DNA from: Chitinophagales bacterium
GTDB lineage: Bacteria > Bacteroidota > Bacteroidia > Chitinophagales > Chitinophagaceae
Reading direction: 5' to 3'
DNA length: 64,000 nt
NCBI GenBank assembly: GCA_015654595.1
Contig: JAATGQ010000155.1
Coordinates: forward strand, 1-64,000
A program made the translations under genes and the position numbers. Shown here in pieces: positions 1-9,730 of the stretch. The notes under the pieces are model-generated. The model did not search any database, was not told the origin of the DNA, and worked only from the letters and a program-made list of their open reading frames with translations. The number at the start of each line of letters is the position of its first letter. Within the stretch, counting starts at the first letter, position 1.

Positions 1-453
1 AAGTTATTATATAATTCGACGGATAAGAAATTTTCAATATTAAGAAGCTTAGATAAGGACACTATTTTTACCATACCGTATAAGCTAATAGCCGATACTT
101 TGCAGCGTTTAATTTTTTATACGGTAGCGATTGCAAAAAATAAAGAGTCTATTTTGATTTTCGAGGAACCAGAAGCACATATGTTTCCTCCTTATGTAAG
201 AAAATTCACTTCAGATATAGTCTTTGACAAAACGAATCAATTTTTTATAACAACCCATAGTCCTTATGTGCTTGATGCCCTTATGGAAGAGGCTCCGGAA
301 GACTTGTCCATTTATCTGGTGTACTATGAAAATGGCGAAACCAAGGTGAAGCTAATGAGTGAGAAAGACATGGAAGAGGTTAATGAATACGGCGTGGATT
401 TATTTTATAACTTGGAAAGTTATTTGAAACATGGACAAGTCAATAATGCCTGA
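1..453 (+). CDS. AAA/ABC-type ATPase, C-terminal part (cut by window start)
   Basis: The frame is open from the first base, so this is the last 150 residues of a longer protein. It shows a Walker B motif with catalytic acidic pair and D-loop (ILIFEEPEAHMFP, about residues 49-61 of the fragment) and a switch histidine (FITTHSPYVLDAL). These are typical of the AAA15/OLD/RloA-type ATPases that partner nucleases in phage defence. Walker A lies upstream of the window. The DNA is AT-rich (first 60 bases 25% GC by hand count), unlike the complex I genes that follow. Its end overlaps the next gene by 23 bases, so the two are probably co-translated. The ATPase fold is clear; a defence role is inference. 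Confidence 0.85.
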   Translation, partial: KLLYNSTDKKFSILRSLDKDTIFTIPYKLIADTLQRLIFYTVAIAKNKESILIFEEPEAHMFPPYVRKFTSDIVFDKTNQFFITTHSPYVLDALMEEAPEDLSIYLVYYENGETKVKLMSEKDMEEVNEYGVDLFYNLESYLKHGQVNNA

Positions 454-973
454 ATGTTATGCAGACACATTATTGATTGAAACATTGGTGCCTACAAAGA
501 TCGGGTACAATCATCAGACCGGTTGTTTTACGGTGGAGAGAGAAATGAGGCTTGGGAAATTCAATGATCGGTTTGCTGTAGGTATAATAGATAATGATAA
601 AGTCCAAATAAAGTACTTGAAGGAATTTGAGGTAATAGATAAAGCGGAAGGTTCTTTAATTTTATGGCGGCATCGGGGTAAGGCAAGGCATCATTACATT
701 ATTCAAATATGCCCTGCCCTGGAACAATGGATATTGGATGTGTGCGGACAAGAAGTTATTCGAATCGGTGATTTTGGAATTGATCCTGATCTTGAAGTTT
801 GGAAGAAATATACGAAATCGAGTAGAAGTATGGATGATAAGAAATTGAAGGCCCTTTTTCAGGAAATGAGTTCTAAAAATCAGAATATAAATGTTCGAAA
901 ACTAAAAAGTTGGATAACACACTTGAAAGAACAGAATTATAAAGCCGATATAAAAGCATTACAAAATGGCTGA
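431..973 (+). CDS. Small TOPRIM-like protein, putative nuclease partner of the ATPase
   Basis: This 180-residue protein is not recognised as a named family. It contains spaced motifs resembling a TOPRIM nuclease of the RloB/DUF4435/DUF4276 type: an early acidic residue (E17 in ADTLLIETLV), a DxD in GIIDNDK (D54, D56), and CPALEQWIL (residues 94-102), which resembles the ExW motif of those proteins. It has no signal peptide or membrane segment. The ATG at 431 lies inside the end of the ATPase gene, and its stop (971-973) lies inside the start of nuoG, so it is wedged between the two. Composition is AT-rich (841-900 is 30% GC). The TOPRIM assignment rests on motif spacing only; a structure prediction would decide it. 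Confidence 0.7.
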   Translation: MDKSIMPECYADTLLIETLVPTKIGYNHQTGCFTVEREMRLGKFNDRFAVGIIDNDKVQIKYLKEFEVIDKAEGSLILWRHRGKARHHYIIQICPALEQWILDVCGQEVIRIGDFGIDPDLEVWKKYTKSSRSMDDKKLKALFQEMSSKNQNINVRKLKSWITHLKEQNYKADIKALQNG

Positions 974-2066
974 CGAAAAGAAATTATTCAAGGTAACGAT
1001 CGACAATATCACCATCGAGGTGGAGCCGGGCACGAGCATTTTGCAGGCGGCCCGGAAGATCGGCGGGGACGTTGCTCCGCCGGCCATGTGCTACTACACG
1101 AAGCTGAAGGGCAGCGGCGGGAAATGCCGGACCTGCCTGGTGGAAGTGGCGGCGGGTTCTACGGCTGATCCGCGTCCGATGCCGAAGCTGGTGGCCAGCT
1201 GTCGTACCAATGTCATGGACGGGATGATCGTAAAGAATATTACCAGCGATAAGGTGATCGATGCGCGTAACGGGGTTGTGGAAATGCTGCTGATCAATCA
1301 CCCGCTGGATTGCCCTATCTGCGACCAGGCCGGAGAATGCTCGCTGCAGGATCTGAGCTATGATCATGGCAAAGAGGGTACCCGCTACGAGTTTGCGAAG
1401 AGAACATTCGAAAAGCACGATCTGGGTCCTTATATCCAGCTGCATATGACGCGTTGTATCCTTTGCTACCGCTGCGTATTTACGGCGGATCAGCTGACGG
1501 AGAAGCGTGTTCACGGGGTATTGGATCGCGGTGATCATGCCGAGATCGCTACCTATATCCAGAAGTCGCTGGACAATGACTTTATCGGGAACATCATCGA
1601 TGTTTGCCCCGTGGGCGCCTTGACGGATAAGACTTTCCGGTTTAAGAACCGCGTATGGTTCCTGAAGCCGGTGGACGCTCATCGTAATTGCAGCAACCCC
1701 AAGTGCAGCGGTCATGTCACCTTGTGGTACCGCGGCGATGAGGTCTTCCGTGTCACTGCCCGTAAGGACGAATGGGGTGAGGTTAAGGAGTGGATCTGTA
1801 ACGAGTGCCGTTTCGAGAAGAAGAAGACCGGTGATTGGGAGATCGAAGGGCCGACCAAGGTCAACAGGCATTCCGTTATCTCTCAGGGTCACTATGTAGG
1901 GGTGCATAAGCCGCAGGAAGTGTTGTATGATGTGTTGGATGGAAGGAAGCCTAAGCTGCTGATGGATATTCATTCGGTCAGCGAGGTGAACAGGCCGGAG
2001 ATCGATTTGTCTAAGATCCAGGGGCCTTCGCACTCGACCGACTTTGAACCGCATGAGTCGAGATAG
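966..2066 (+). CDS. nuoG: NADH-quinone oxidoreductase subunit G, short form
   Basis: This is the peripheral-arm iron-sulphur subunit of complex I, which passes electrons from NuoF towards the NuoI clusters. The N-terminal [2Fe-2S] ferredoxin domain has C42, C54, C57 and C79. The His-Cys [4Fe-4S] site has H112, C116, C119 and C125. A further [4Fe-4S] site has C164, C167, C170 and C214. Four more cysteines follow (C242, C247 and the CNEC at about 278-281). At 366 residues it lacks the long molybdopterin-oxidoreductase-like C-terminal domain of E. coli NuoG (about 900 residues). The ATG at 966 overlaps the end of the TOPRIM-like gene by 8 bases. Composition changes sharply here (1021-1080 is 70% GC). 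Confidence 0.95.
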   Translation: MADEKKLFKVTIDNITIEVEPGTSILQAARKIGGDVAPPAMCYYTKLKGSGGKCRTCLVEVAAGSTADPRPMPKLVASCRTNVMDGMIVKNITSDKVIDARNGVVEMLLINHPLDCPICDQAGECSLQDLSYDHGKEGTRYEFAKRTFEKHDLGPYIQLHMTRCILCYRCVFTADQLTEKRVHGVLDRGDHAEIATYIQKSLDNDFIGNIIDVCPVGALTDKTFRFKNRVWFLKPVDAHRNCSNPKCSGHVTLWYRGDEVFRVTARKDEWGEVKEWICNECRFEKKKTGDWEIEGPTKVNRHSVISQGHYVGVHKPQEVLYDVLDGRKPKLLMDIHSVSEVNRPEIDLSKIQGPSHSTDFEPHESR

Positions 2067-2178: not shown

Positions 2179-3255
2179 ATGCATTTAACGTTATTGTCAA
2201 TTGACTGGCTTCTTTTAATTGAAAAATGTGTGCTGATCCTGATCATCATCAGCGTTTCGCTGGTGATCGCGATGTATGAGACCTGGGCGGAGCGAAAGGT
2301 CGCGGCATTTATGCAGGACAGACGTGGTCCGAACCGTGCTGGTTTTGGCGGTCTACTGCAGCCGATGGCCGATGGTCTGAAGCTCTTCATGAAGGAGGAG
2401 ATCATTCCAACATCTTCGAGCAAGTTTTTGTTCGTTTTGGGTCCGGGAATGGCGATGCTGACGGCGATGATGACGAGTGCGGTCATTCCCTGGAGCAGTC
2501 ATTTTCATTTATTCGGCCGGGACGTTTCGATGCAGATTGCCGACGTCAATATCGGTATCCTGTATATTTTCGGTGTGGTGAGTATGGGGGTGTATGGCAT
2601 CATGATCGGCGGATGGGCGTCGAATAACAAGTTCTCTCTGCTGGCTGCGATCCGCGGCGCTTCGCAGATCATCTCTTATGAGCTGGCGATGGGGCTTGCG
2701 ATCATTGCGCTTTTGATGATCACCGGGACGCTTAGTCTTGGAAAGATGGTCGAGCAGCAGCAGGAGCATGGGCTTTATAATTTCGTTGTTCAGCCTTTGG
2801 GCTTTCTGATCTTTTTGGTTTGTGCGTTTGCCGAGTGTAATCGTACGCCGTTTGATTTGTCTGAAGCGGAAAACGAGTTGAACTTTGGATATCACCAGGA
2901 GTACTCTTCGATGAAGCTGGGTTTCTATCTTTTCGCCGAGTATATCAATATGTTTATCAGCAGTGCGTTGATGGCATCGTTGTATTTTGGCGGTTTTGAT
3001 ATTCCTTTTGTGAATGATGCGGCCTTTGGTGCGCATTTCGGTCAGAATCCGCTGGCGATATTGCAGGTTGTTAGTTTGTTTGGGAAGATCGTGTTGTTCA
3101 TCTTCTTCTTTATGTGGGTGCGTTGGACGATACCGCGCTTCCGTTATGATCAGTTGATGAATCTGGGTTGGAAGGTGTTGATACCGCTGGCGCTGTTCAA
3201 TATGCTGGCAACGGGCTTTATTGTATTGCTGAAGGCTCATGGATGGCACTTTTGA
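2179..3255 (+). CDS. nuoH: NADH-quinone oxidoreductase subunit H
   Basis: Membrane subunit of complex I lying at the junction of the arms and forming much of the quinone chamber. The 358-residue protein has about eight hydrophobic segments and family motifs such as ETWAERKVAAFMQDRRGPNR near residues 35-54 and AECNRTPFDLSEAENELNFG, an acidic loop typical of NuoH. The length fits the family. It follows nuoG after a 112-base spacer and precedes nuoI by 74 bases, in canonical order. Confidence 0.97.
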   Translation: MHLTLLSIDWLLLIEKCVLILIIISVSLVIAMYETWAERKVAAFMQDRRGPNRAGFGGLLQPMADGLKLFMKEEIIPTSSSKFLFVLGPGMAMLTAMMTSAVIPWSSHFHLFGRDVSMQIADVNIGILYIFGVVSMGVYGIMIGGWASNNKFSLLAAIRGASQIISYELAMGLAIIALLMITGTLSLGKMVEQQQEHGLYNFVVQPLGFLIFLVCAFAECNRTPFDLSEAENELNFGYHQEYSSMKLGFYLFAEYINMFISSALMASLYFGGFDIPFVNDAAFGAHFGQNPLAILQVVSLFGKIVLFIFFFMWVRWTIPRFRYDQLMNLGWKVLIPLALFNMLATGFIVLLKAHGWHF

Positions 3256-3329
3256 TAAGGGCCGCTGATTAAAAATTGGTCATTTGATTTGATAAAAATA
3301 TTTTTGCGAACGCTAATAAAGAGTTGATT

Positions 3330-3860
3330 ATGCAACCATTAACAAGCCGGTCAAAGGCGGTAGAACGCAAGCCGATGACGATGTGGGAGAAGATGTATTT
3401 ACCGGCGATTGCCAAGGGGATGTCTATCACGTTTGGGCATATGTTCAAGAAGAAGCCTACGGTGAATTACCCCGAGAAGACACGTCCTTTCAGTCCTGTG
3501 TTTCGGGGGCTGCATGTGTTGAACCGTGACGAGCAGGGGCGTGAGCGTTGTACGGCTTGTGGGCTTTGCGCTGTCGCCTGCCCTGCTGAGGCTATTACGA
3601 TGGAGGCGGCTGAGCGTCTGCCGGGGGAAGAGAATCAGTACCGGGAAGAGAAGTATGCGGCGAAGTATGAGATCAATATGCTGCGTTGTATCTTCTGCGG
3701 ACTTTGTGAAGAAGCATGTCCAAAGGATGCGATCTATTTGTCGGAGACTTTTGCTCCTGCTAATTATACGAGAAAGGGCTTTATATATGGAAAGGAAGAG
3801 CTGCTGATCCCCAATCCGGTGACGCAGCCTGAGGAGTATGCAAAGGCCAAGGGCCTGTAG
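3330..3860 (+). CDS. nuoI: NADH-quinone oxidoreductase subunit I
   Basis: Ferredoxin-like subunit of complex I that carries two [4Fe-4S] clusters (N6a and N6b) in the connecting arm. Both motifs are present: CTACGLCAVACP and CIFCGLCEEACP, about 40 residues apart. I chose the ATG at 3330, six bases after AAAGAG, rather than the TTG two codons earlier. The protein has 176 residues, within the normal range. It lies between nuoH and nuoJ in the standard order. Confidence 0.96.
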   Translation: MQPLTSRSKAVERKPMTMWEKMYLPAIAKGMSITFGHMFKKKPTVNYPEKTRPFSPVFRGLHVLNRDEQGRERCTACGLCAVACPAEAITMEAAERLPGEENQYREEKYAAKYEINMLRCIFCGLCEEACPKDAIYLSETFAPANYTRKGFIYGKEELLIPNPVTQPEEYAKAKGL

Positions 3861-3878
3861 CATACGAGCGAGCTAAAG

Positions 3879-3905
3879 CGTACCCGAGCCAAGGCGAAGG
3901 GTACG
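3879..3905. repeat. Inverted repeat in the nuoI-nuoJ spacer
   Basis: The 144-base spacer between nuoI and nuoJ contains the perfect inverted repeat CGTACCC (3879-3885) and GGGTACG (3899-3905) with a 13-base loop, followed by several CGAAG repeats up to about 3962. No coding frame fits. It could be an mRNA processing or stability hairpin that tunes the nuoGHI to nuoJ ratio, but no U-tract follows the stem, so it is not a clear terminator. Confidence 0.4.
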
Positions 3906-4004
3906 ATCGAGGAGAAACGAGGAACGAAGTTTCGACGAAGATCTAAGCAGCTTTGGCGAAGGTCTAAAAGCTAAAGACAAATTAATTTTTTAATAATCTG
4001 CTCA

Positions 4005-4505
4005 ATGGGTATTACGCAAGTCCTGTTCTGGTTTTTAAGCATCCTGGCGATCCTCAGCGCTATCCTGGTCGTGGTCAGTAAGAATCCTGTACACAGTGTG
4101 CTGTGGCTGATCGTTGTATTCGTTGCAATATCCGGGCATTATATCTTACTGGATGCCCAATTCCTGGCGATCGTGAATCTCATCGTGTATGCGGGCGCCA
4201 TCATGGTCCTCTTCCTGTTTGTTTTCATGTTGATGAATCTGAATGCCGATACCGAGCCGCAGAAGAACCGCTGGCTGAAGATCGCGGGTGTGGTGACGGG
4301 CGGAGCGCTGCTGCTGGTGCTGGTTGCCGCGCTGAAAAAGGCGGACATGAAGGCGCAGCTGGCTGAGATGGGGCATGGGAATATCGGCCTTATTCATAAT
4401 CTTGGCGCTGTATTATTCAGCGACTATGTGGTGCCTTTCGAGTTGAGCAGCGCCTTGTTCCTGAGCGCAATGGTAGGTGTGGTCGTCATCGGGAAGAAAG
4501 ATTAG
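4005..4505 (+). CDS. nuoJ: NADH-quinone oxidoreductase subunit J
   Basis: Membrane subunit of complex I in the proton-translocating arm, related to mitochondrial ND6. The 166-residue protein has about five hydrophobic helices, and the family region VNLIVYAGAIMVLFLFVFML is easily seen near residues 57-76. It ends in a short hydrophilic tail (VVVIGKKD). It lies 21 bases before nuoK. Confidence 0.94.
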   Translation: MGITQVLFWFLSILAILSAILVVVSKNPVHSVLWLIVVFVAISGHYILLDAQFLAIVNLIVYAGAIMVLFLFVFMLMNLNADTEPQKNRWLKIAGVVTGGALLLVLVAALKKADMKAQLAEMGHGNIGLIHNLGAVLFSDYVVPFELSSALFLSAMVGVVVIGKKD

Positions 4506-4526
4506 CAATCATTCATTATCATTTTT

Positions 4527-4856
4527 ATGCCGATAAATTATTACATATTCTTGTCTATAGCGTTATTCTGCATCGGGGTGGCCGGTGTGTTGACCCGCAG
4601 GAACGCTATCATTATTTTCATGTGCATCGAGCTGATGTTGAATGCAGTGAATCTGTTGCTGGTTGCTTTTTCGAAGATGCACTATCATGCATTGGCGGCT
4701 ACTAACCCTAATGCGGGTATAGACGGGCAGCTTTTCGTCTTCTTTATCATGGTGGTGGCTGCGGCCGAGGTGAGTGTGGGATTGGCCATTATCGTGATGA
4801 TGTACCGTAATACCCATTCGATCGACGTGAATTTCCTGAACAGGTTGAAACATTAA
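4527..4856 (+). CDS. nuoK: NADH-quinone oxidoreductase subunit K
   Basis: Small membrane subunit of complex I, related to ND4L and to MrpC. It has 109 residues and three transmembrane helices. Helix 2 contains the conserved glutamate in [14 protein letters not shown] and helix 3 contains [13 protein letters not shown], whose glutamate takes part in proton transfer in the family. It starts at an ATG 21 bases after nuoJ and ends two bases before nuoL. Confidence 0.97.
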
Positions 4857-4858
4857 TC

Positions 4859-6841
4859 ATGAACAATATTATACAGTTAGTCTGGTTGATTCCCGTGCTG
4901 CCTCTTGCAGGCTTTCTCCTGAATGGTTTGTTCAGGAATCATTTGTCCAAGTCTTTGACGGGGATTATCGGAAGCGGTACTGTTCTGGCTTCTTTTGTCA
5001 TCAGTGTGCTGATCTTCCTACAGGTTAAACAGCCTGGGTTTCATGGGGAGACCGTTACGCTGTTTGATTTCATCTCAGTAGGAAAGCTGAGTATTCCTTT
5101 CGCTTTCCTGGTGGATCAGCTGTCTGCCCTTTTCCTGCTGATCATCACCGGGGTTGGTTTCCTGATCCATTTGTATTCCACTTCTTATATGCATGAGGAA
5201 GAGGCTCCGCATTTTGCGCGCTACTTCGCTTATCTTAACCTGTTCGTGTTCTCGATGCTGTTGTTGGTGCTGGGCGCCAATTTCATTATCCTGTTCATTG
5301 GCTGGGAAGGTGTTGGTCTCTGTTCTTATCTGTTGATCGGTTACTGGTTCAAGAACATGGATTATGGCAATGCAGCCAAGAAGGCCTTTATCATGAACCG
5401 TATCGGTGACCTTGGTTTTCTGATCGCGGTCTTCCTGATGATCAATACGTTTGGTTCCGTGTCTTTTGCTGAAGTGTTTGCGCATACGGGCGGGGTGAAG
5501 GCTGGCGTAGTGACGGCGATCACGCTCCTGCTGTTCGTAGGCGCTACCGGTAAGTCTGCCCAGATCCCTTTATATACCTGGCTGCCGGATGCGATGGCGG
5601 GTCCTACTCCTGTGTCGGCTCTTATCCACGCGGCTACGATGGTGACGGCGGGTATCTATATGATCACGCGGAGCCATGTTTTGTTCTCGCTGACGCCGAT
5701 CACGCAGAACGTCATTACTGTTATTGGTTTGGCTACGGCGTTGCTGGCTGCTACTATTGCGTTGAAACAAAACGATATCAAGAAAGTGCTGGCTTATTCT
5801 ACGGTGAGCCAGCTGGGATATATGTTTATTGGTCTGGGTGTCGGCGCTTATACCGGCGCTGTCTTCCATGTGATGACGCATGCGTTCTTCAAGGCTCTTT
5901 TGTTCCTTGGCGCGGGTTCTGTGATCCATGCTATGGGCGGCGAGCAGGATATGCGTAAGATGGGTGGTCTGAAGAAGTGGATGCCGATAACGAATATTAC
6001 CTTCCTGGTGGGGTGTATCGCGATTGCCGGTATTCCTCCTTTCTCCGGTTTCTTTTCCAAAGACGAGATCCTGTCTGCGGCATTTGGTAAGAGTCCCGTA
6101 TATTATGCGATCGGCTTGTTTACTGCTGCGCTGACGGCTTTCTATATGTTCCGTCTGTATGCGACGACTTTCCAGGGGCAGTACCGCGGGGTGAATAATA
6201 CGGTACATGGCGGGGAGGATGCTGCAGATACCGGACATGGGGGACACGACGCGCATGGCGGTCATGGGCATGGTTTACCGCATGAGAGTCCGTCGGCTAT
6301 AACGATCCCGCTGATCGTGCTGGCGATCCTTGCTGCGGTGAGCGGTTTCCTGGGTATTCCCGAGGCGATCAAGCCCGACTCCCATTGGCTGGCCAATTTC
6401 CTGGCGCCGGTGGTTTCCGGTACGGAGGGTGCGAATCTGCCTGCCGCTGCTGGCCATGAGATCAGCAACGGTACCGAGATCGGACTGATGGTTGCTTCTG
6501 CCCTGCTGGCTATCGTTGTTTCCCTATGGGCTGGTATGAAGTTCAGTAAGAAGCCCGACCTGGGTGAGGCGACGGGTTTTGGCAAGGTGCTGGCGAACAA
6601 GTGGTATGTGGACGAGCTTTATGGCGTTATTATATTGAAACCGCTGAGTGCGATCGAGTCGATGCTGCAATGGATAGATAAGTATGTGATCGATGGTATC
6701 GTGAATGGCATTGGTCGTCTTGTTCAATATGGCAGCCGTCAGTTGAGGCTGGTTCAAAGCGGCCAGGTGGGTGGATATGTGTTGTTGATGGTGGTCGGTA
6801 TTTTGGTTTTATTTTTAGTCGAACTGTTTGTAAAGAAATAA
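4859..6841 (+). CDS. nuoL: NADH-quinone oxidoreductase subunit L
   Basis: Distal antiporter-like proton-pumping subunit of complex I (ND5). The 660-residue protein shows the family core: WEGVGLCSYLLIGYWF, then TGKSAQIPLYTWLPDAMAGP with its conserved lysine and proline break, and the HAATMVTAGIYMITR segment. The C-terminal part should contain the long lateral helix and final anchor. A His/Gly-rich cytoplasmic loop with over ten histidines lies near residues 440-480, encoded at about 6200-6290; such loops vary in this family. It is followed three bases later by nuoM. Confidence 0.97.
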   Translation: MNNIIQLVWLIPVLPLAGFLLNGLFRNHLSKSLTGIIGSGTVLASFVISVLIFLQVKQPGFHGETVTLFDFISVGKLSIPFAFLVDQLSALFLLIITGVGFLIHLYSTSYMHEEEAPHFARYFAYLNLFVFSMLLLVLGANFIILFIGWEGVGLCSYLLIGYWFKNMDYGNAAKKAFIMNRIGDLGFLIAVFLMINTFGSVSFAEVFAHTGGVKAGVVTAITLLLFVGATGKSAQIPLYTWLPDAMAGPTPVSALIHAATMVTAGIYMITRSHVLFSLTPITQNVITVIGLATALLAATIALKQNDIKKVLAYSTVSQLGYMFIGLGVGAYTGAVFHVMTHAFFKALLFLGAGSVIHAMGGEQDMRKMGGLKKWMPITNITFLVGCIAIAGIPPFSGFFSKDEILSAAFGKSPVYYAIGLFTAALTAFYMFRLYATTFQGQYRGVNNTVHGGEDAADTGHGGHDAHGGHGHGLPHESPSAITIPLIVLAILAAVSGFLGIPEAIKPDSHWLANFLAPVVSGTEGANLPAAAGHEISNGTEIGLMVASALLAIVVSLWAGMKFSKKPDLGEATGFGKVLANKWYVDELYGVIILKPLSAIESMLQWIDKYVIDGIVNGIGRLVQYGSRQLRLVQSGQVGGYVLLMVVGILVLFLVELFVKK

Positions 6842-6844
6842 CGT

Positions 6845-8314
6845 ATGATTCCTGTTTTACTGATCGTCATTCCCCTGGTAACCGGCTTGATTGGTTTTCT
6901 GATCAAGAGCGATAACGGCGCTCGCGGCTGGGCTTTACTGTCGTCTGTTTTGACGCTGATCGTCGCTCTGGCGGGATTAGGCCTGGCAAAGGATAGTCCG
7001 CTGCTTCATGCCGATGCGCAGTGGCTGCCTGAGTTGGGAAGCCGCATGACCGTAGGTCTGGATGGGCTTGGCAAGGTGCTTGGGTTGTTGACGGCGGTCT
7101 GCTTTCCGCTGATCTTTGTCGCTACCTGGCGGGACAGCTATAAAAAATCCTGGAATTTTTATGCGTTGATGCTTTTGTCCCAGGCGGGGTTGATGGGTGT
7201 CTTTATGGCTTATGATGCGTTGTTGTTCTACTTCTTCTGGGAACTGGCGCTTATCCCTGTCTACTTCCTCTGTTCCCAGTGGGGTGGAGAGAGAAGGATT
7301 GCTGCTACCTTTAAATTCTTTGTTTATACGTTTACGGGCAGCCTTCTGATGCTGGTCGGCATTATCTGGCTGTGGTCCCGGACGCCGGATCATTCCTTTT
7401 CGCTGCAGGCTTTTTATGACGTTCATAATCATATGAATGGCGGCGAACAAGGATTTATCTTCTGGTTGTTGTTCCTTGCTTTTGCGATCAAGATGCCGAT
7501 ATGGCCTTTGCATACCTGGCAGCCGGAGACTTATGAGCAGTCTCCGACGGCTACGACGATGGTGTTGAGTGCTGTGATGGTAAAGATGGGCGTGTTTGGA
7601 GTTATCCGTTGGGTGGCTCCTGTGGTTCCTGGCGGTTTCTGGCAGTGGGGCGATCTGGTTTCCTTCTGCTGTATGTTCGGAATGATCTATGCTTCGCTGC
7701 TGGCGATCAAGCAGGACGATTTGAAGCGGCTGATTGCTTATTCCTCCATTGCGCATATCGGTTTGATGTGTCTGGCGCTGTTTGCGATCGACAAGACCGG
7801 CTGGCAGGGGGTTATGATCCAGATGTTCAACCACGGGATCAATATCCTGGGGATGTGGATCGTGGTGGATCTGATCGAAAGGCAGTTTGGCACGCGTAAG
7901 ATATCCGAGCTGGGTGGTATTGCGCAGAAGGCGCCCGGGCTGACGATCCTGTTGGTGATCGTTGCGCTGGCCAATGTGGCGCTGCCGCTGACGAATGCCT
8001 TTGTGGGCGAGTTCCTGTTGTTCACCGGGGTGTTTACTTCGACGGCAACACAGTATAACGTGGTTTATACCGTTATTTCCGGTTTGTCGATCATTTTGGG
8101 CGCTGTCTATACCCTGAACATGATCCAGCGGGTGTTTTATGGCAATACCAATACGTTGACTGCACAGGGGACGGATATCAAATTGAATGAAAAGCTGGCG
8201 TTGGCGGCTATCGTGGTACTGATCCTGGTGATCGGCGTGTACCCCAAGCCAATGCTGCAGCTGGGACAGGATACGGTGGATCAGGTGTTGTCGAGGATTA
8301 ACTATAAACTCTAA
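6845..8314 (+). CDS. nuoM: NADH-quinone oxidoreductase subunit M
   Basis: Antiporter-like proton-pumping subunit of complex I (ND4). The 489-residue protein contains FFWELALIPVYFLCSQWGG with the family's conserved glutamate, AFAIKMPIWPLHTWQPETYE with the conserved lysine, and LIAYSSIAHIGLM. About fourteen hydrophobic helices and the length agree with NuoM. The start is the ATG three bases after the nuoL stop, so the genes are probably translationally linked. Confidence 0.97.
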   Translation: MIPVLLIVIPLVTGLIGFLIKSDNGARGWALLSSVLTLIVALAGLGLAKDSPLLHADAQWLPELGSRMTVGLDGLGKVLGLLTAVCFPLIFVATWRDSYKKSWNFYALMLLSQAGLMGVFMAYDALLFYFFWELALIPVYFLCSQWGGERRIAATFKFFVYTFTGSLLMLVGIIWLWSRTPDHSFSLQAFYDVHNHMNGGEQGFIFWLLFLAFAIKMPIWPLHTWQPETYEQSPTATTMVLSAVMVKMGVFGVIRWVAPVVPGGFWQWGDLVSFCCMFGMIYASLLAIKQDDLKRLIAYSSIAHIGLMCLALFAIDKTGWQGVMIQMFNHGINILGMWIVVDLIERQFGTRKISELGGIAQKAPGLTILLVIVALANVALPLTNAFVGEFLLFTGVFTSTATQYNVVYTVISGLSIILGAVYTLNMIQRVFYGNTNTLTAQGTDIKLNEKLALAAIVVLILVIGVYPKPMLQLGQDTVDQVLSRINYKL

Positions 8315-8335
8315 AGCGAAAGATCAAAAGTAGAT

Positions 8336-9730
8336 ATGAATTCAATATTGTTATCGGCTATCTGGGGTATCGTCATGATGTTCAGCGGGGTGTTTACACA
8401 AAGTAAATCCGCCATCCGGTACACGGCAATTCTTGGCTTGATCCTGTTGCTACTGGTCACCTGTATGGATCTGGGAGGATGCCGGGTGGATATCAATGTC
8501 CACAAGATGCTTTATTTCGATACGTTTGGGATGTTGGGTAACAGTATTGCGTTTGCCAGCACGCTGATCTATGTGTTGTTGTCGGGTCGGGATATGGAGA
8601 AGGTGGGGCACAACCTGGCGGAGTACTTTGCGCTGGTGTTCTTTATCCTTTGCGGTCTTTCGATCGTAACGAGTTTCAATACACTGTTGATGTTGTTCCT
8701 GGGTATCGAGATCATGTCGATCCCCCTGTATATCCTTACGGGCAGCGACAAGCGTAATTTGAAGAGTAATGAGGCTTCGTTGAAATACTTCCTGATGGGA
8801 TCTTTTTCAACGGGGTTGATGTTGCTGGGGATTGCGTTGTTATATGGCGCGAGTTCTACGGGTACTTTCTTTATCGATGATCTCTGGGCCGGCAAGACTT
8901 CCTCTGAGCCTTTGTTCATGGCGGGTATCCTGCTGATGCTGGTGTCGATGGGATTCAAGGTGAGTGCGGCGCCTTTTCACTTCTGGACGCCGGATGCTTA
9001 TGATGGCGCGCCTACCGTGTTCACGTCCTTTATGGCTACGGTTGTCAAGGTTTCCATATTTGTGGGTTTTGTGCGTCTGTTTGACGAAGGTTTTGGGGCG
9101 AGCAAGGAGAAGTGGCAGCTTTTCGTGGCGTTGGTTACGGCGGCTACTTTGTTTATCGGGAACATTACGGCGGTATTCCAGCAGAGTGTCAAGCGGATGC
9201 TGGCTTATTCCAGTATTGCTCAGGCTGGTTTTATGTTATTGTCGCTGATGGCGTTGAACCAGGTTTCGAAGGAGGGTATTCTTCTGTATGCGGGGGCTTA
9301 TAGCCTTGCGACGATAGGGATCTTTGCGATCCTGATACGTATGAAGGATTATACTTTTGAAGGGTTTAATGGTTTGGCGAAGCAGCAGCCTGTTCTGGCT
9401 GCTACCTGTACGATCTTTCTTTTATCTCTGGCGGGGATACCACTGACAGGCGGATTTTTTGCTAAATATTACATGTTGTCTTCTGTCGTGGCTACGGGTC
9501 ATTATCTGTGGCTGGTCATTTTTGCGGTGCTTTGTGCGGCGGTCAGCGTTTATTACTATTTCCGGGTCATCCAGGCGATGTACTTCAAGGATGGTGATGG
9601 ATCGACCGAGGAGCAGCCGAGTGCTGGATTCAAGGGCCTGCTGGTTTTCGTAGCTGCGCTGATCCTGCTGTTGGGTATCTTCCCGCAGACCTTGTTGGAT
9701 CTGCTTTCCAAGATAGTTTATATCTATTAG
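8336..9730 (+). CDS. nuoN: NADH-quinone oxidoreductase subunit N
   Basis: Antiporter-like membrane subunit of complex I (ND2), the last gene of the operon. The 464-residue protein carries FLGIEIMSIPLYILTG, GFKVSAAPFHFWTPDAYDGA with the conserved lysine, and MLAYSSIAQAGFMLL. The helix number and length are normal for NuoN. It starts 21 bases after nuoM. Beyond it the composition stays GC-rich but coding stops and a short repeat-bearing spacer begins. Confidence 0.97.
   Translation: MNSILLSAIWGIVMMFSGVFTQSKSAIRYTAILGLILLLLVTCMDLGGCRVDINVHKMLYFDTFGMLGNSIAFASTLIYVLLSGRDMEKVGHNLAEYFALVFFILCGLSIVTSFNTLLMLFLGIEIMSIPLYILTGSDKRNLKSNEASLKYFLMGSFSTGLMLLGIALLYGASSTGTFFIDDLWAGKTSSEPLFMAGILLMLVSMGFKVSAAPFHFWTPDAYDGAPTVFTSFMATVVKVSIFVGFVRLFDEGFGASKEKWQLFVALVTAATLFIGNITAVFQQSVKRMLAYSSIAQAGFMLLSLMALNQVSKEGILLYAGAYSLATIGIFAILIRMKDYTFEGFNGLAKQQPVLAATCTIFLLSLAGIPLTGGFFAKYYMLSSVVATGHYLWLVIFAVLCAAVSVYYYFRVIQAMYFKDGDGSTEEQPSAGFKGLLVFVAALILLLGIFPQTLLDLLSKIVYIY

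Follow-up and report, generated by a model that had tools for sequence, protein, structure and literature searches.

A probable defence-type ATPase and TOPRIM-like gene pair within the complex I operon of Chitinophagaceae

The complex I (nuo) operon of a Chitinophagaceae bacterium, like that of several relatives, carries in front of nuoG a pair of genes that we read, as the probable explanation, as a system of the abortive-infection type that joins an ATPase to a nuclease and can exchange its sensor domain. Most of the defence genes known lie in defence islands, prophages, and mobile elements; a defence-like unit fixed in a core respiratory operon and equipped with a swappable probable sensor would offer a simple, testable route for trading immune specificities without mobile elements. 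Two-gene units of an ATPase and a TOPRIM protein are of a known kind, and the novelty lies in a second-gene family outside the scanned libraries, in the presence of a whole clade at one complex I site, and in the visible exchange of the ATPase middle. In the portions available of the literature on nuo insertions, defence genes in housekeeping operons, AbiL/Rlo systems, and variable ABC sensors, no report of the pair in a complex I operon was found, and absence from those sources is no proof.

Anatomy of the gene pair and its neighbours

The window, i.e., the whole stretch of DNA that was analysed (64,000 bp), comprises bases 1-64000 of contig C99 (145,816 bp), which belongs to a genome of 6.03 Mb in 265 contigs with 87% completeness. 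Because the first base of the window is also the first base of the contig, the 5' part of the ATPase gene is missing. The features of the pair and of the adjoining operon are as follows:

1..453, + strand: 150-residue C-terminal part of an ATPase of OLD/AbiL-like type (AAA_21/AAA_15; from the ORF translation, profile matches, and the full-length relatives L005 and L006)
1..87, + strand: end of the exchangeable ATPase middle domain (followed from about codon 30, IADTLQR, by the conserved C block)
151..180, + strand: Walker B segment ILIFEEPEAH (from the translation)
256..258, + strand: switch histidine of THSPY (from the translation)
431..453, + strand: overlap of the ATPase gene and the second gene, 23 bp (from ORF coordinates)
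431..973, + strand: 180-residue TOPRIM-like protein, presumed nuclease effector (from the translation; acidic motifs conserved)
452..454, + strand: E8 codon, first TOPRIM-type acidic residue (from the sequence and an alignment of relatives)
590..598, + strand: D54-x-D56 codons (from the sequence and an alignment of relatives)
722..724, + strand: E98 codon, of E98xW100 (from the sequence and an alignment of relatives)
966..973, + strand: overlap of the second gene and nuoG, 8 bp, ATGGCTGA, which places the stop of the pair within the nuoG start (from the sequence)
966..2066, + strand: nuoG, short form, 366 aa (from the ORF and profile matches)
2179..9730, + strand: nuoH to nuoN, the remaining operon (from ORFs, an NADHdh match for nuoH, and the same gene order in relatives)

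The ATPase fragment matches AAA_21 (2.9e-9) and AAA_15 (6.3e-8); its Walker A is cut off by the contig end and reads GYPNVGKSN in full-length relatives. Likewise, only the final 29 residues of the middle domain fall within the window, and the exchange discussed below is visible in the full-length ATPases of relatives. A preliminary description of this DNA had recognized an ATPase with a Walker B segment and switch histidine, a 180-residue protein with the TOPRIM-like spacing of E, DxD, and ExW, and the position of both directly before nuoG, all of which the coordinates above bear out. It had also called the pair AT-rich relative to nuoG; the difference is real, although its size had been overstated (34-36% GC against 54%, not 25-30% against 70%). 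The corresponding GC3 values in the window are 0.34-0.36 for the pair and 0.70 for nuoG, and in all 15 carriers both genes have a lower GC3 than nuoG, narrowly so in G552 (0.20-0.24 versus 0.25) and more clearly in the others.

The left side that the window lacks can be read in relatives. In a Chitinophagaceae MAG (L005, PMUF01000313.1), the series nuoA to nuoF is followed by an ATPase gene of 357 codons, by the second gene, and finally by nuoG. Within family f1, which the place of L005 in the nuoG tree leads us to infer to be the Chitinophagaceae, the pair stands before nuoG in L005, L006/G140, G126, G280, G005, G176, G228, G078, G112, G167, G091, G219, and G183; the one case outside f1 is G552, of family f18. 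With the window, this makes 15 in-nuo loci, the f1 carriers spanning eight genera including that of the window. Among the 14 other loci, nuoG lies downstream of the pair in all and nuoF upstream in 13, as the preliminary description had supposed for the left-hand neighbour; in the remaining locus (G078), the contig stops within the ATPase. A small ORF separates nuoF from the ATPase in G005 and G176.

The pair does keep the operon in step as had been proposed, often by way of overlapping genes. The exact 8 bp overlap of the second gene with nuoG (ATGNCTGA) recurs in 10 of the 15 in-nuo loci, and in the other five the second gene stops 0 to 63 bp before nuoG. At the other end, the ATPase starts about 8-31 bp past nuoF in six of seven measured loci (147 bp in L005), and the in-nuo pair therefore probably relies on the nuo promoter. 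All 15 second genes in nuo are uninterrupted (173-190 residues), as are the 13 ATPases that lie wholly on a contig (330-375 residues); interrupted or truncated relatives occur away from nuo (L014, L034, G034), a difference that coupling to nuoG could explain.

Kinship with split ATPase-TOPRIM systems

The full-length ATPase of L005 exceeds the cut-offs of both AAA_15 and AAA_21, and its best PADLOC match is AbiLi, over nearly its whole length (1.7e-19), followed by AriA (8.7e-19), PDC-M38A, GajA, and Old; the protein therefore belongs with ATPases of OLD/AbiL type. Among PDB sequences, a profile search with it returned the AAA family ATPase 9n69 (5e-6) and, weakly, RecF and the Ec78/PtuA ATPase. 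The ABC/OLD-type ATPase that characterizes split OLD-like ATPase and TOPRIM systems is thus present, with Walker B and the histidine read in the window and Walker A in relatives.

The second protein lies outside all Pfam, NCBIfam, and PADLOC families, the 20 members scanned yielding one chance-like Pfam match of one member up to E 0.01, and the PDB profile search gave chance-like matches only (best E 0.032). It is presumed to be a TOPRIM-like putative nuclease on the strength of its motifs: all 47 second proteins compared (37 rows of the pair tree described below, less L055, plus 11 class loci) retain E8, D54, and D56, and E98 is present in 44 and replaced by D in the other three. These positions are what we take to be the TOPRIM metal site. 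Comparison by hhalign with RloB, the OLD TOPRIM, and three controls produced nothing significant, in a weak test in which RloB versus OLD was not significant either; the highest-scoring alignment was short and lay at RloB's ExW motif. Structure models had a mean pLDDT of 39.8 for the second protein (rows window, L005, and L006) and of 40.9 for the L005 ATPase (rows L005, L006, and window). As judged from its sequence, the second gene represents a TOPRIM-like family that is missing from all three libraries scanned and that the pair now adds.

Several known systems invite comparison. AbiL (AbiLi and AbiLii) divides its ATPase and TOPRIM part between two genes; the present pair resembles AbiL and the candidate system PDC-M38 in that an ATPase of some 340-360 residues has a small independent gene behind it, and the AbiLi model aligns with nearly the whole ATPase at the value given above. 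It differs in its docking in nuo and in its second protein, which matches neither AbiLii nor PDC-M38B (none of 20 members matches any PADLOC model at E 0.01); an AbiLii-type partner was thus not found, the window protein having no family match. With RloA/RloB, the pair shares the motif order E ... DxD ... ExW, a pattern found in most of 10 same-family RloB proteins; it is unlike that system in that its second protein has no PF13707 match and no significant profile comparison. The available part of one article treats PARIS (AriA and AriB) as a proposed class 4 of OLD proteins and assigns its ATPase and its TOPRIM part to two neighbouring genes (PMC10568477), an arrangement like that seen here. 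The present ATPase likewise matches AriA, as noted above, but its partner has no AriB match. In sum, the family libraries do not support assigning the second gene to RloAB or PARIS, both named in the preliminary description, or to AbiL. For PARIS, the accessible text of a further article has AriB cleaving tRNA (PMC12409363), and an OLD-family ATPase, Cran1, is described in the part available of another as serving the cell cycle, not defence (PMC12796447). Such a role tells against the defence reading, as do the missing family match of the second protein and the lack of relatives in the viral and plasmid records described below.

By analogy, the two-gene conflict module may work like the split ATPase-TOPRIM defence systems AbiL and PARIS. 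The ABC-type ATPase would sense an infection cue via its middle domain, and a change in its ATP state would license the small TOPRIM-like nuclease, which would then damage nucleic acid and thereby halt phage growth or the cell. In its place between nuoF and nuoG, where the loci read show no regulator of its own, the pair is probably transcribed together with complex I and translationally coupled to it. The Walker A segment, the stretch from Walker B to the C-terminus, the second gene, and the nuo genes would be the fixed parts, and the middle, presumably the sensor, would be swapped between lineages by recombination. Conflict systems in which sensors are diversified by DGRs exist, according to the part of the source available (PMC10907252); they are alike in combining a variable putative sensor with an otherwise conserved system, and unlike in that they employ targeted point mutation, whereas here a whole domain is exchanged.

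Carriage and the nuoF-nuoG gap

Carriage of the pair is patchy. In the family survey, relatives of the second protein were found in 21 of 294 genomes, 13 with the pair in nuo and eight with relatives only elsewhere; three genomes (G005, G183, and G219) have one copy in nuo and one elsewhere. The supposition that all relatives might carry the pair, raised beforehand as a case that would count against a horizontally gained module, accordingly fails. Universal carriage was rejected as a candidate on the same count. In the family survey, the second protein drew no hit at E 0.001 in five other members of the window's genus; one of these five, G194, contains a distant pair of ATPase and TOPRIM-like genes at another locus. 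At the level of the order, 28 of 396 genomes match, G552 being the sole additional in-nuo case; at that of the class, 17 of 395 match, of which 15 are new relative to the family and order searches, and neither nuoF nor nuoG occurs within the roughly 1.5 kb read on either side of these 15 loci. The viral contigs, plasmids, and phage records searched contained no relatives of the pair. Contexts outside nuo were judged by eye from ORF lists covering about 1.5 kb around. Three non-nuo relatives (L068, L069, and L162) are preceded by an HTH gene.

In a tree of 37 ATPase and second-gene pairs, from which L014, L024, L033, L034, L040, L044, L048-L050, and L054 were left out (truncated, interrupted, repeated, or not taken up) and which the class loci L162-L177 postdate, all 15 in-nuo pairs form one clade (support 100/98), with six non-nuo pairs of the same family as its sister (100/99). 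Mapped onto a tree of 72 NuoG sequences, carriage needs 10 changes, eight of them forced by well-supported branches; the rows of this tree are the 15 carriers and 57 loci picked from genomes without the pair at nuo, and they give no frequency estimate. A single in-nuo clade combined with patchy carriage therefore describes a module that recurs at one site and is neither an artefact nor a universal accessory of complex I. The earlier proposal that the module had landed between nuoF and nuoG is right as to the place, and requires amendment as to the event: the in-nuo copies form one clade that shares this site in eight genera of the family and in one genus of a second, which is more than a single landing.

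The site itself is permissive. In a junction survey of 52 loci without the pair (L101-L152, one per genus), gaps exceeding 250 bp were found at nuoE-nuoF in 33 of 51, at nuoF-nuoG in 27 of 52, at nuoH-nuoI in 11 of 52, and at each of ten other junctions in 0 to 5; the nuoF-nuoG figure is somewhat high because four short-gap genomes (nuoF and nuoG in one match) and some short contigs were omitted, an alternative count being 27 of 61 with a gap over 300 bp. The nuoF-nuoG gaps held 30 ORFs, of which three antisense ones were dropped and 27 scanned, with 14 PDDEXK_3, five 23S_rRNA_IVP, and four glycosyltransferases among the results. The inserts at this junction are for the most part small genes of nuclease-like or IVP type. 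With inserts so frequent, the pair is therefore one occupant of a permissive, often filled gap, and the survey supports insertion tolerance at this junction, with which a selfish, homing-like reading also fits. As a separate observation, both junctions flanking nuoF are insertion hot spots in the family, the other junctions being mostly tight, and the nuoE-nuoF gap ORFs, which by eye are SnoaL-, VOC-, and lipoprotein-like, differ in kind from those between nuoF and nuoG.

According to that selfish reading, the nuclease would cut the empty nuoF-nuoG junction and the unit would be copied in by repair, spreading without benefit to the host. The confinement of one clade to one site across several genera and a second family agrees with it, as does the attraction of the same gap for other small genes, the PDDEXK_3 and IVP-type ORFs above included. 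The four loci checked for flanking repeats, three with none and the fourth with one 11-base match, cut both ways: the scarcity of repeats suits homing, and the lack of a target-site duplication speaks against it. Sister pairs at unrelated sites are a further difficulty, and neither an ATPase partner nor an exchanged middle domain would be anticipated in a homing enzyme. Homing is thus an unlikely account, and a defence-type system docked at a tolerant site is preferred.

Exchange of the ATPase middle domain

Exchange can be followed in three species of genus g91 (G167, G091, and G219), whose NuoG proteins are 98-99% identical, second proteins 88-91%, and ATPases 55-60%. Along the ATPase, the N block (residues 1-43, through Walker A) is 100% identical, the middle (about 190 residues) 21-30%, and the C block (from ADTLQR on) 85-93%. 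Nucleotide identity in 20-codon windows tells the same: 93-100% in the first two windows, 27-63% in the middle, and 87-100% in the last three, with an immediate drop after the second window and a rise across the Walker B region. The role of the exchanged part is presumably that of a sensor, and this natural allele series of nearly identical NuoG proteins and dissimilar middles makes the cue sensed by the ATPase directly testable.

Trees of the ATPase ends and of the middle conflict accordingly. Both were built from 28 of the 37 pairs, the window and L018 (partial ATPases) and L069 (N-terminus missing) having been dropped together with the distant or long branches L055, L045, L046, L047, L025, and L026. 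The ends group the g91 trio (100/100); in the middle tree, G219 (L052) joins G183 (L051) and L005, the nearest relative of the window, and G091 joins G126 (L023, L063; 100/99). Forcing the trio into a single clade there is rejected (p-AU 3e-5, or 8e-8 with the in-nuo copy of G183 added). A second pair of genomes, G005 and G176 of genus g6, has middles that are 18% identical between ends of 93% and 75%, with a borderline AU test (p 0.050).

The sister clade outside nuo (five rows) displays no comparable dip, with 63% identity in the middle versus 73% in the C block. Nor do two pairs of that kind from different families (L070 and L162), which stay at 78-95% identity along the entire ATPase. Expressed as a ratio of middle to C-block identity, the in-nuo pairs stand at 0.43, the sister clade at 0.87, and the more distant non-nuo pairs at 0.49; a fast middle is thus partly general, because the distant non-nuo pairs are also low, and only against the sister clade is the contrast clean. 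Within the sequences compared, it is the in-nuo clade in which exchange flanked by near-identical ends can be seen.

These data bear on the alternative of a single ancient insertion followed by vertical inheritance with many losses and no lateral exchange. The in-nuo pairs do form one clade, and within g91 the dS of the second gene (0.26-0.45) resembles that of nuoG (0.24-0.50), both as vertical descent would have it. Against this stand the conflict between the middle-domain tree and the ends tree and, with weak support (84/61), the pair of G552 (f18), which nests among the others although its NuoG forms the longest branch; purely vertical inheritance is accordingly judged quite improbable. 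The second gene has a dN/dS of 0.12-0.16 within g91 and of 0.20 and 0.33 in two wider comparisons, next to 0.01-0.05 for nuoG, and by this measure is under purifying selection.

Such selection, as well as a constant position and coupling to nuoG, would also be in keeping with an accessory or quality-control factor of complex I. A factor of this type would be expected in all or most relatives, yet the pair lies in nuo in just 13 of the 294 family genomes; furthermore, it has relatives away from nuo, three with the upstream HTH genes mentioned above, and part of its ATPase is hypervariable. We regard this role as very unlikely and retain the reading of a defence-type system with an exchangeable sensor. 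A more speculative extension of that reading, offered tentatively, would make the Chitinophagaceae complex I operon a port through which immune specificity is exchanged: nuoF and nuoG, both nearly universal and slow to evolve, might act as homology arms, so that the docked unit could trade its sensor, or come and go whole, between species by homologous recombination, with the coupling to nuoG guarding the reading frame.

The source genome offers its own glimpse of allelic variation. The sole nuoF found in it lies at the end of contig C110 (G000 C110:66520-68097, L003) and runs, with no pair between, straight into another nuoG 5' end, of which 198 bp are present, 89% identical to that of the window, with the last 38 bp identical. 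The bin thus probably mixes a pair-bearing and a pair-less allele, and the fact that the left end of C99 and the contig end of L018 both fall in the most variable part of the ATPase suggests that allelic variation may have broken the assemblies. The same arrangement on C110 might be taken to indicate a chimeric assembly at the start of C99, a notion barely tenable in view of nine other genomes in which the second gene and nuoG share this 8 bp overlap (e.g., L005 and G126, the latter in about 20 contigs), on which ground it was rejected.

Some further loci were noted. On the L006 contig (27,808 bp; also present as G140:C114), a second, different pair of an ATPase and a small TOPRIM-type protein lies at 3681-5599, just upstream of nuoF in the same operon; its ATPase is PDC-M38A/AbiLi-like (2.7e-39) and its partner matches DUF3226 (2.1e-8). 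The L006 record (JASGCQ010000030.1) is titled Phycisphaerales, a public label that is probably wrong, since its NuoG groups with family f1. In the nuo operon of G005, nucleotidyltransferase genes with small partner ORFs (L158:6222-7502 and 8651-8989) occupy the nuoG-nuoH and nuoH-nuoI gaps, being called MNT-like from Pfam for the first gene only (L017:69-404). Two sister-type non-nuo pairs from two families of the class (L070:7594-9109 and L162:513-2028) are 78-95% identical in every ATPase DNA window, which suggests recent lateral transfer. Distant pairs from two families (L032:1474-3034 and L042:369-2034) apparently share one place in a methylmalonyl-CoA mutase cluster, a second metabolic docking site, and another distant relative (L043:410-2040) lies upstream of rpsL-rpsG, the gene names at these loci having been assigned by eye.
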